This document shows, piece by piece, positions 28,045 to 51,460 of a DNA stretch of 64,000 bases; the stretch's first letter is position 1; the number at the start of each line of letters is the position of its first letter. Origin of the DNA: Pseudomonas sp. TMP9. Lineage in GTDB: Bacteria > Pseudomonadota > Gammaproteobacteria > Pseudomonadales > Pseudomonadaceae. The DNA lies in contig NZ_CP149803.1 of NCBI RefSeq assembly GCF_037943105.1, forward strand, positions 620,001 through 684,000. The letters run 5' to 3'. Under the pieces are notes generated by a model. The model did not search any database. It saw only the letters and a program-made list of their open reading frames with translations, and was not told where the DNA came from. Made by a program: the position numbers and the translations under genes.

Positions 28045-29328
28045 TTACCTGAGTCGCTGCAGCAGCTCATGGCTGGGGTAGCCATCGGCAGGCAAGCCTA
28101 AACTCTGCTGGAAGGTGCGAACGGCCTTGCGTGTATTAGCACCGATAATGCCGTCGGCCGGGCCCGGCTCGTAGCCTTTGCGGGTCAGCAATTCCTGCAG
28201 TTCGATACGCTCGCTGCGGCCCAATTGGCGGTCATTACGTGGCCATGCGGCTTGCACGCCCGGGTTGCCATCCAATGCATCGCTAAGCAGGCCGATGGCC
28301 AACGCGTAAGCGGTGGAATTATTGTATTTAAGAATGCTGCGGAAATTGTTCAGCAGTAAAAAGGCGGGGCCGCGATGCCCGGCCGGCAGAAACAACGTGG
28401 CCAAGCTTTGCTCATCGGCATCAATGGTGCGAGTCGGATTGATCCCGAGACTGCGCCAATCCGTCAGGCTGCGGCGAACTTCCGGGTCGGCCAAGGCGTA
28501 GTCAAAGCCCTGCGGCAGATTGACTTCAAAACCCCACGTCTGGCCATTTTCCCAACCCGATGCTTGCAGATAATGCGCGGCCGAGGCCAGGGCGTCGGGG
28601 GTGGATTTCCACAAGTCGCGGTGGCCGTCGCCATCAAAGTCGACGGCATGCTCATTGAAGGTGGTCGGCATAAATTGGGTCTGGCCCATGGCGCCCGCCC
28701 ATGAGCCGATCAGCCCCTGTGCCGGGCCATCGCCGGCTTGCAGTATCTGCAGGGCGGCGAGCAATTGGCTGCGCCAGAACACCTGGCGGCGGCCGTCATA
28801 AGCCAATGTAGCGAGGGAGCGGATCACATCATGACTGCCGATATTGCTGCCGTAATTGCTTTCCATGCCCCAAATGGCGATCAGTACTTCATGATCGACG
28901 GCGTAGGCACTGCGAATGGCTTTTAAGGTGGGTCGATACTGCGCTTTCAGCAGGCGACCTTGGGCAATACGGGAAACAGAAACGGCCCCGTCGATGTATT
29001 CCCACACAGGTCGGGAAAACTCGGGTTGGCTGTTATCGGCGCTCACCACTTTTGGGTTCAGGGTGATGCCGGCGAAGGTGCGGTCGAACAAGGCTGCATC
29101 GATGCCCGCGGCAATGGCATCACTGCGCAGTAGCATGCGCCATTCATCGAAGCTGATAAGCGGGGTTGGGCTAGAAGCACTCATGGCGACTGGGTTGGCG
29201 GTCGCTGCTGGCGCGCTAACCGGCTCGGCGGCAAGCGGTTGGGCCGGCGCGTCGGCACACGCCGTCAGAAGCAGCAGAAGGCTGGCGGTGGCACTCTGTT
29301 TAAGGCCCCGAACAAGCAGATAAGGCAT
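28045..29328 (-). CDS. MltB-family lytic transglycosylase with peptidoglycan-binding domain
   Basis: This ~427-residue protein is a second MltB-type enzyme, distinct from the mltB at 22499. It begins with a lipoprotein signal (ASLLLLLTAC). The catalytic glutamate is Glu156 in IWGMESNYGSNIG, with WAGAMGQTQFMPTTF and DFDGDGHRDLW as in MltB. A C-terminal PG_binding_1 domain (TRKGYEPGPADGIIGANT ... VRTFQQSLGLPADG, residues ~365-425) is absent from the other copy. Its place beside lipA matches a third SltB-like gene in P. aeruginosa. The start could also be a little upstream; the signal peptide favours 29328. Confidence 0.92.
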   Translation of the reverse strand: MPYLLVRGLKQSATASLLLLLTACADAPAQPLAAEPVSAPAATANPVAMSASSPTPLISFDEWRMLLRSDAIAAGIDAALFDRTFAGITLNPKVVSADNSQPEFSRPVWEYIDGAVSVSRIAQGRLLKAQYRPTLKAIRSAYAVDHEVLIAIWGMESNYGSNIGSHDVIRSLATLAYDGRRQVFWRSQLLAALQILQAGDGPAQGLIGSWAGAMGQTQFMPTTFNEHAVDFDGDGHRDLWKSTPDALASAAHYLQASGWENGQTWGFEVNLPQGFDYALADPEVRRSLTDWRSLGINPTRTIDADEQSLATLFLPAGHRGPAFLLLNNFRSILKYNNSTAYALAIGLLSDALDGNPGVQAAWPRNDRQLGRSERIELQELLTRKGYEPGPADGIIGANTRKAVRTFQQSLGLPADGYPSHELLQRLR

Positions 29329-29410
29329 GGCGGTCTCGGCACATTTTGCAGGCAGCAACCTTAGCATAAATGAGCGGATGTGCGGGTGTTGGCGGGCTGC
29401 GGTGGGCGTT

Positions 29411-29569
29411 TCAGGCGGCCTGAACGTATGAAGCCTCCCAGTTCTGCTGGGAGGCTTCGCGGCGGTAGCTACCTTTGCCTTTACCGGGCTTCTCTTGTCG
29501 AGAGCGGAACAGCGGTTGGGCAATCAGGGATTTGGCTTTGTTGGGGCCGTGTGTACTTTTCTTAGTCAT
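29411..29569 (-). CDS. arfA: Alternative ribosome-rescue factor A
   Basis: This 52-residue basic protein frees ribosomes stalled on non-stop mRNA by recruiting RF2 when trans-translation fails. It matches ArfA in the core AQPLFRSRQEKPGKGKGSYR and the following NWEAS. The ATG at 29569 has GGAG six bases upstream. The codons for residues 38-47 form a perfect hairpin (see 29430-29458). In Escherichia coli such a hairpin causes RNase III cleavage or termination inside the gene, so that the truncated product is tagged by tmRNA and destroyed unless tmRNA is lacking. The same control is inferred here. Confidence 0.93.
   Translation of the reverse strand: MTKKSTHGPNKAKSLIAQPLFRSRQEKPGKGKGSYRREASQQNWEASYVQAA
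29430..29458 (-). promoter_or_regulatory. Hairpin inside arfA coding sequence
   Basis: Perfect 12-bp arms (29430-29441 and 29447-29458; GAAGCCTCCCAG on the coding strand) surround a 5-base loop. The stem is fully within the reading frame, over codons 38 to 47. No T run follows on the coding strand, so cleavage by RNase III is more likely than simple termination. A second, smaller palindrome (TTCAGGC/GCCTGAA, 29410-29424) covers the stop codon. Confidence 0.85.
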
Positions 29570-29650
29570 GATTTCTCCTGAGGCAAGGGCCAGCTTTGCT
29601 AGGCGGGTAAAGCATGATCCGCACAAGCTGAAATGTCCAGTGCCCGGCGT

Positions 29651-30682
29651 TTAGCCTGGCAGGCGCACAGGCTGACCACAGATACTCAACGTCAGCAGAC
29701 TCAGACCGCTCCAAGGGTCGCCCGTCGCTTGGCCTTTAATCTGTGCATCAATCTGCTGCGCATCCAGCAAAAGTGCTGCCCAGCGCGCTGCGGATAAACG
29801 CTGCAAAGCCTTGCTGACTATGGGGCGGCGCTTATCCCAGACTGGTGGGCGGGCTGAGCTAAAGGCTTTATCCAGCGGCATGCCGTGGGCATGCTGCTGG
29901 GCTATGGTGGCCAGCAGGCGGATTTCTCGAGCCAGCGCCCAGAGGATCACCGGTGGCTCAACGCCCTCGCCGCGCAGGCCTTCAAGCATACGCAGGGCGT
30001 GAGCGGCTTCGCCATTCAGCGCGGCATCGATCAAGCCAAACACATCGAAGCGCGCGCTGTCAGCGACCGAGGCGTGCACCGTGTTGACATCAATTTGCGT
30101 GCCTTCGGCCAGCAGTTTGAGCTTCTCGATTTCCTGAGCGGCGGCGAGCAGGTTGCCCTCAACGCGGATGGCGATCATGTCCACGGCTTCGGCGCTGGCG
30201 CTGAGGCCTGATTGCGCCAGGCGCTGGCGAATCCATTGCGGCAGTTGGCTAGTTTCGACCGGCCAGATTTGCACGAACTGAGTCTGTGCGCCCTCAATCA
30301 GTGCTTTGCCCCATTTGCTCTTCTGCGCGGTGCCGTCGAGCTTAGGCAAGCTGATCAACAACACCGTGTCTTCGGCCGGTCGAGCCAGGTATTCGAGCAA
30401 CGCGGCGCCTTTATCGCTGAGTTTGCCACTGGGAATGCGCAGCTCTAAAAGGCGTTTGTCAGCAAATAAAGACAGGCTAGCGCCAGCCTGAAGCAGGTTG
30501 CCCCAGTCAAAGTGTGTGTCGGCGTTGAATACCTGGCGTTCACTGAAGCCCTGCTGACGGGTTGCAGCGCGAATGCTGTCGGCCGCTTCCTGAGTCAGCA
30601 GCGGTTCGTCGCCACTGATCACATACACCGGGCTTAGACTGCCCTGCAGGTGTTTGCCGAGTTGTGCGGGGTTGAGTTTCAT
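29651..30682 (-). CDS. holA: DNA polymerase III subunit delta
   Basis: This 343-residue clamp-loader subunit opens the beta sliding clamp. The N-terminal domain has the VYVISGDEPLLTQEAADSIR signature, then LLELRIPSGK and VLLISLPKLD. Length matches the family. It follows lptE by 39 bases and leuS further upstream, an order conserved in gammaproteobacteria. Confidence 0.95.
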   Translation of the reverse strand: MKLNPAQLGKHLQGSLSPVYVISGDEPLLTQEAADSIRAATRQQGFSERQVFNADTHFDWGNLLQAGASLSLFADKRLLELRIPSGKLSDKGAALLEYLARPAEDTVLLISLPKLDGTAQKSKWGKALIEGAQTQFVQIWPVETSQLPQWIRQRLAQSGLSASAEAVDMIAIRVEGNLLAAAQEIEKLKLLAEGTQIDVNTVHASVADSARFDVFGLIDAALNGEAAHALRMLEGLRGEGVEPPVILWALAREIRLLATIAQQHAHGMPLDKAFSSARPPVWDKRRPIVSKALQRLSAARWAALLLDAQQIDAQIKGQATGDPWSGLSLLTLSICGQPVRLPG

Positions 30683-51043: not shown

Positions 51044-51460
51044 ATGATGAAGTCGAGTCGTCCTTATTTGGTTCGTGCCCTCTATGAGTGGCTCGTGGAC
51101 AACGACTGCACTCCGCACTTGCTGGTCAATGCCGAGTTTACCGGTGTGCAGGTGCCGAGTGGTTTCGCTCGTGATGGGCAAATTGTCCTGAATGTTTCAC
51201 CTACGGCTGTGCGTCACCTGCATATGGATAACGAAGCTGTCAGCTTTGAAGGCCGTTTTGCTGGGGTTGCGCAAACCCTGTACATCCCCGTAGCTGCCGT
51301 GTTGGCGATCTACGCGCGGGAAAACGGTCAGGGTATGGTCTTTGATGCGGAGCCGTCGATGCTTGACGGTGAAGAGATTGACGATCCGGATGCTCCCGGC
51401 TCACCTGATGATCAGCCGCCACGCCCAAGTGGCCGGCCCAGTTTGAAGGTGGTCAAGTAA
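51044..51460 (+). CDS. sspB: ClpXP protease specificity-enhancing factor SspB
   Basis: This 138-residue adaptor delivers ssrA-tagged proteins to ClpXP. The N-terminal dimer domain reads SRPYLVRALYEWLVDNDCTPHLLV. A disordered acidic/proline linker leads to the ClpX-docking tail RPSLKVVK at the extreme C-terminus. GGAG lies three bases before the first ATG and six before the second (51047), so the second may be the true start. Confidence 0.95.
   Translation: MMKSSRPYLVRALYEWLVDNDCTPHLLVNAEFTGVQVPSGFARDGQIVLNVSPTAVRHLHMDNEAVSFEGRFAGVAQTLYIPVAAVLAIYARENGQGMVFDAEPSMLDGEEIDDPDAPGSPDDQPPRPSGRPSLKVVK

Follow-up and report, generated by a model that had tools for sequence, protein, structure and literature searches.

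The closest described system is arfA of Escherichia coli, in which a hairpin in the 3′ coding region, a truncated message, control by transfer-messenger RNA (tmRNA) and an unstable full-length product have been reported (Garza-Sanchez 2011; Chadani 2011, as summarised in the available portions of PMC3989581, PMC10107115 and PMC8012679). According to the same portions of PMC3989581 and PMC10107115, the E. coli messenger RNA (mRNA) is both cut by ribonuclease III (RNase III) and terminated at the stem-loop, and full-length ArfA is unstable and is stabilised by two aspartate residues at its C-terminus. A second comparable case is brfA of Bacillus subtilis, where an intrinsic terminator inside the open reading frame (ORF) gives a non-stop message under tmRNA control; brfA encodes a different rescue protein, and an encoded ssrA-like tail is not mentioned in the available text (PMC6881298). 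In Pseudomonas aeruginosa, PA3990 is called arfA in print, and its predicted hairpin, its shortness and its hydrophobic C-terminus have been remarked upon; the available text of that review does not mention the two features described below, a tract of U-rich codons and an Ala-Ala (-AA) end (PMC13159725). The gene analysed here is a 52-codon arfA at positions 29411..29569 (minus strand) of a 64,000-nucleotide (nt) stretch of Pseudomonas sp. TMP9 (contig NZ_CP149803.1, positions 620,001 to 684,000), hereafter the window. It has the hairpin of the four E. coli features listed above and would share the other three, and its genus differs from E. coli in two respects: the E. coli stem is cut by RNase III with some termination, whereas Pseudomonas genes carry a stem of 10–14 base pairs (bp) followed by the U-codon tract, and the longer hydrophobic tail of E. 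coli ArfA is replaced by a short -AA tail.

Expression of this arfA is fairly likely to be self-limited at two points, by termination at the hairpin with tmRNA tagging and by an encoded -AA degron. Most arfA transcription would end at the in-frame hairpin, which would act as an intrinsic terminator made of a short G+C-rich stem and a U-rich tract of sense codons. A ribosome would stall at the end of the resulting stop-less message, tmRNA would tag the ArfA product, and ClpXP, aided by SspB, would destroy it; untagged truncated ArfA would be present only if tmRNA were lacking or overloaded. Messages that were read through, for example where a close-following ribosome held the hairpin open, would yield full-length ArfA, whose end (-[L/M/V/Q]AA) would mimic that of the tmRNA tag and lead to the same protease. 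A following ribosome can prevent terminator hairpins from forming (PMC5021804, in its available portion), which would explain why the read-through product needs a tag of its own. Termination in the cell, the tagging step, the part played by ribosome coupling and recognition of the encoded tail by ClpXP are inferences.

To compare related genes, 202 loci were fetched, comprising the window's own, 200 from the same genus and one from a sister genus (L033). They represent about half of the 386 hits in the genus, taken best-scoring first with further ones picked by hand. A total of 199 loci were parsed, giving 146 distinct genes. Of the remainder, L174 and L208 missed the parsing pattern and were inspected by eye (both end in -AA), and L244 was left out. 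Gene counts come from related, non-independent sequences, and kinship was partly offset by shuffle and tree tests. The tree was built by a quick search on approximately 380 bases upstream of 198 of the 199 parsed genes.

Codons 38–47 of arfA read GAAGCCTCCCAG-CAGAA-CTGGGAGGCTTC (29430–29458, minus strand) and form 12 perfect Watson-Crick pairs. The 5′ arm, GAAGCCTCCCAG, lies at 29447..29458 and covers codons E-A-S-Q, the 5-nt loop CAGAA is at 29442..29446, and the 3′ arm, CTGGGAGGCTTC, occupies 29430..29441 with codons W-E-A-S. The 12-bp stem and five-base loop had been placed exactly there by a first-pass annotation made from the letters alone, which also argued for selection on the RNA. When the gene was recoded synonymously at genome codon usage (taken only from this genome, using 343 ORFs of at least 150 codons in the window plus twenty other segments), 60 of 20,000 trials (0.3%) produced a perfect stem of at least 12 bp at any place in the gene. 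Pairing is partly favoured by the protein itself (EAS...WEAS), so the evidence from this single sequence is moderate. The folding energy of the whole region was weak (z = -1.95, with 8 of 200 shuffles equally good).

The comparative evidence for selection on the stem is strong. A stem of 10–14 core pairs was present at the equivalent position in all 199 parsed genes, lengthened in some by extra pairs and in many including one or two G-U pairs; a single mismatch, as drawn by the script, was seen in 6 of the 146 distinct genes. The ten outer pairs were tested for covariation across 98 distinct stem regions, against 500 shuffles and against versions with the partner slid by 1–3 bases. Standard pairs filled 99.4% of cells, and pairing dropped to 40–73% when the partner was slid. 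Both sides had changed at four of the ten pairs (8 cells in total, two of the four pairs depending on one gene, L062), which exceeds all 500 shuffles and every slid version. Some of these changes are matched at the protein level. In RQAS...WEAC, E to Q is accompanied by S to C and a G-C pair becomes C-G; in RETS...WEVS, A to T is accompanied by A to V and G-C becomes A-T; in RDGS...WEPS, two stem pairs are altered. A U-G pair replaces C-G in 131 of 198 genes, where the protein has Phe instead of Ser. The distance between the arms takes four values spaced by whole codons and changed at least 14 times on the tree, with the stem retained throughout. Taken together, these patterns indicate that the hairpin is under selection as RNA, as had been proposed; covariation was found and every parsed relative had kept the stem. 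One group of arfA genes carries a GAGA loop.

The stem is followed by a tract, TTCATACGTTCA (29421..29432, minus strand, counted from the last three stem bases). The genus profile behind the G+C-rich stem is UUC-UU-N-C-UUU-N-U-GG, and the commonest value among relatives is 8 T in 12. At the second codon behind the stem, T is the final base in all 145 distinct genes that have a synonymous choice, the remaining one of the 146 having ATG. This holds for 119/119 Phe, 13/13 Leu (CTT), 10/10 Val (GTT), 2/2 Ile and 1/1 Arg codons, with the amino acid at this site changing at least 18 times on the tree. In the window's genome, T-ending codons account for 49.7% of Phe, CTT for 8.3% of Leu and GTT for 17.5% of Val. 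The last Ser codon of the stem is the rare TCT in 92 of 129 cases. A simple terminator rule (a G+C-rich stem, then at least five U in eight) is passed by 119 of the 146 distinct genes, whose first 8 bases 3′ of the stem contain five or more T. Codon choice thus points to selection that keeps U in the codons behind the Pseudomonas stem.

The proposed second point of control concerns the encoded C-terminal tail, YVQAA (29414..29428, minus strand), which would give the read-through product an ssrA-like -AA end. ArfA ends in Ala-Ala in 173 of the 199 parsed genes (124 of 146 distinct). The 343 background ORFs include two with an -AA end and none with an [LMVIFA]AA end. In 122 of the 146 distinct genes the tail behind the stem is exactly five residues long; all 122 of these have Ala at position -1 and 115 have it at -2, and each of the two positions draws on all four Ala codons. 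Residue -3 may be L, M or V, or else K, Q or R, and it changed at least 39 times on the tree, compared with at least 12 changes for the last two residues. In a separate search of named records, which partly overlaps the main sample, the 80 best-matching loci gave 76 ends in -AA, 2 in -VA and 2 in -TA. The tmRNA tag predicted from the window's genome, ANDDNYGAQLAA, ends in QLAA and the window ArfA in -QAA, so that the two share the C-terminal -AA. Of known tags, LAA is the common end and LVA and AAV are variants in use for delivery to ClpXP; there the tag is added by tmRNA or by engineers, and here a comparable end is written in the gene (PMC9382460, in its available portion). The -AA tail is probably an encoded ssrA-like degradation tag for the read-through product, recognition of -QAA by ClpX being assumed.

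Departures from the five-residue form were also recorded. A group of 15 genes (L016–L018, L020–L026, L028–L030, L042 and L082) carries longer tails, either 18 residues with -AC at the end or 17 residues with -RA. L200, L045 and L062 have odd tail lengths and ends (RRKRR, IQAV and LNVA) behind an intact stem, perhaps from shifted or extended frames.

Comparable ends occur outside the genus. In one family (f180), 14 of 24 genomes yielded an ArfA, and its C-terminus was [CS]YQIAA in all 14 loci. Three further families gave SYLMAA in 4/4 loci, PYSKAA in 2/2, and, in the third (4 loci), -MAA twice, -MVA once and -TWA once; PYSIAA was seen once in a fourth. Tails of the form E-[SC]-Y-x-x-A-A are present in other families, and some (KESYQIAA, RRESYLMAA and EPYSKAA) are closer than the Pseudomonas tails to ssrA, with its tag ENYALAA. 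In these families, a stem joins the last arfA codons to sequence behind the stop codon, which lies between the arms (12–33 pairs in the 14 f180 loci). Stem pairing could favour some of those codons, so these tails are weaker evidence than the Pseudomonas ones. The stop codon between the arms was seen in L145, L350, L363–L365 and L367–L380; a cut in the 5′ arm would remove it.

The reading with two points of control has observations weighing against it, in part on the tail and in part on the tract. With regard to the tail, 26 of the 199 genes lack -AA (13 -AC, 7 -VA, 2 -RA and one each -GA, -CA, -AV and -RR). E. coli ArfA likewise ends in -AC. Among the 24 distinct genes with another tail length, 9 end in -AA (for example PPKLAA, VKSAA and GGFLAA) and 15 do not. 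The -AA end was also absent from all 14 parsed loci of two long-stem families (f170 and f187, taken to be Pasteurellaceae-like and E. coli-type) and from all 5 loci of f194, so ArfA proteins do not universally carry this tail. Such cases allow that -AA is no degron and belongs to a tail whose hydrophobicity leaves full-length ArfA unstable or liable to aggregate, the view taken in reviews of E. coli; the available portion of PMC3989581 describes the full-length E. coli protein as unstable through its hydrophobic C-terminus. Different hydrophobic residues close many ArfA proteins elsewhere, and the 15 of 24 distinct genes of other tail length without -AA fit as well. A hydrophobic tail does not account for residue -3 being K, Q or R in 9 of the 122 five-residue tails when every one of the 122 has Ala in last place, nor for the recurrence of E-[SC]-Y-x-x-A-A ends in other families, and this alternative is rather unlikely.

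With regard to the tract, the window copy itself has 3 T in the 8 bases behind the stem, falling short of the terminator rule together with 26 other distinct genes of the 146. Its 5 T in 12 is a value shared by 3 of 146 (the window included), and none is lower. In the window's genome, T is in any case the third base of approximately half of all Phe codons. Immediately behind the stem, the first codon (29426–29428 in the window) has C as its third base in 57/57 Tyr (TAC) and 42/45 Cys (TGC) codons, and this C, with the resulting tract form UUxCUUU, is not explained by a plain U tract. A simple terminator scan returned 6 sites compared with 4.4 expected, and the arfA site was not among them. The window tract being among the weakest of the sample, the 3′ end there is perhaps formed by another route or read-through is more frequent; it may arise less by termination and more via RNase III or exonuclease trimming. 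In a published P. aeruginosa 3′-end map, arfA and PA3990 are absent from the main text (PMC8297930).

The absence of a T run had been taken in the first-pass annotation as a sign that RNase III cuts the hairpin to give the non-stop message, as in E. coli. The run is indeed poor in the window copy, the enzyme is encoded in the genome, and cutting happens to E. coli arfA (PMC3989581, available portion). The argument from the lack of a T run is nevertheless not supported, given the U-rich tract of the genus, the 119 of 146 genes that pass the terminator rule and a stem about half the length of those in the long-stem families. Stems of 19–33 bp with at most two mismatches were found in all 14 parsed f170 and f187 loci, whereas the Pseudomonas stem has 12 bp in the window and 10–14 core pairs in relatives, below the length of approximately 20 bp or more that we drew from the long-stem families as our own yardstick for the RNase III-cut class. 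Cutting would also have no need of U-ending codons 3′ of the stem, and RNase III as the main route is quite improbable. Several loci of other families have stems of 11–15 bp in which the 3′ arm, or the sequence that follows it, is rich in T, so that two hairpin designs seem to exist, with Pseudomonas resembling the short-stem, T-rich one. A survey of proteobacterial arfA (Schaub 2012) reportedly found such hairpins in most genes, several of them cut by RNase III, and is said to describe the hairpin of Neisseria gonorrhoeae arfA as an intrinsic terminator.

That the hairpin is an ordinary end-of-operon terminator overlapping the last arfA codons, with the non-stop message as a side effect, is very improbable: a gene in the same orientation does begin 82 nt downstream, yet the overlap is held in all 199 genes with paired amino-acid replacements despite that space in the window, and other families with different stems likewise fold the end of arfA.

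Several components that two-point control would draw on are encoded in the same genome as arfA. The window product scored 40.2 bits against PF03889 (curated Pfam cut-off 25.5) and, as a member of that family, would be expected to recruit release factor 2 (RF2) to ribosomes stalled on non-stop mRNA. The genome contains a tmRNA gene, an RNase III gene and three loci of the RF-1 (release-factor) family. The gene for SspB, which delivers ssrA-tagged proteins to ClpXP as an adaptor, lies in the same window as arfA at 51056–51457 (plus strand; G000:C1:671056-671457). A non-stop arfA calls for a conserved hairpin in the 3′ coding region before the stop and for a tmRNA in the same genome, and both are present here. 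With the selected hairpin and these genes, a fail-safe of the E. coli type, in which arfA mRNA is non-stop and its product is tagged by tmRNA, is the best reading by analogy. This much of the earlier proposal stands, and its RNase III route is the weaker reading. The fail-safe itself is known biology and has already been suggested for P. aeruginosa, as far as the available text of PMC13159725 goes.

We tentatively extend this reading to a matched pair of degrons, in which either message end gives a protein with an ssrA-type -AA end and ArfA reports on both failing tmRNA and the protease queue. On this view a terminator in a translated gene must leak, since a ribosome close behind the polymerase keeps the hairpin from forming, and the gene would therefore write its own imitation of ssrA behind the terminator. 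If this were true, tagged proteins filling ClpXP would allow full-length ArfA to escape as well. The U-codon tract offers a concrete, testable answer for the genus, and the encoded ssrA-like tail would account for the tolerance of leaky termination. If the tail is a degron, ArfA would be a natural case of degron mimicry, its level set jointly by the tmRNA and ClpXP load. The paired amino-acid changes that track the RNA stem are a clean case of RNA structure steering protein sequence. A statement on an ssrA-like ArfA tail was not found in the available text of the literature searched, the likeliest source (Schaub 2012) lying outside that search, and the novelty of the encoded tail is provisional.

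ArfA was detected in 386 of 398 genomes of the same genus. The other 12 gave no arfA match, and when they were searched again with the window's ArfA, allowing E values as high as 1, no hit was better than 0.08. The genomes without a match include G025, G042, G145, G160, G220, G248 and G396, each at least 99% complete with approximately 1% contamination. A class-wide scan found ArfA in just 4 of 274 genomes.

A second palindrome, TTCAGG CCG CCTGAA (6 bp; 29410..29424, minus strand), spans the stop codon of the window gene. It had been noted in the first-pass annotation as a further element under selection; the palindrome exists, and as a functional element it was rejected, since no more than 6 of 178 distinct genes, counting the window's own, have a stem of at least 6 bp across the stop. 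It is probably due to chance, on the evidence of this comparison, and apparently owes its existence to a Gln codon at a site that is Leu or Met in most relatives.

The arfA coding sequence was delimited by the PF03889 match and its translation, and ends in ...WEASYVQAA followed by the stop codon TGA. The sequence AGGAG, read off at 29575..29579 (minus strand) 5 nt upstream of the ATG, is presumably a Shine-Dalgarno motif. Both neighbours are on the same strand as arfA. The upstream gene is holA-like (DNA polymerase III delta subunit; 29651..30682, minus strand), and the downstream gene encodes an MltB-like lytic transglycosylase with SLT_2 and PG_binding_1 domains (28045..29328, minus strand), its distance of 82 nt from the end of arfA depending on a start codon of our choice.
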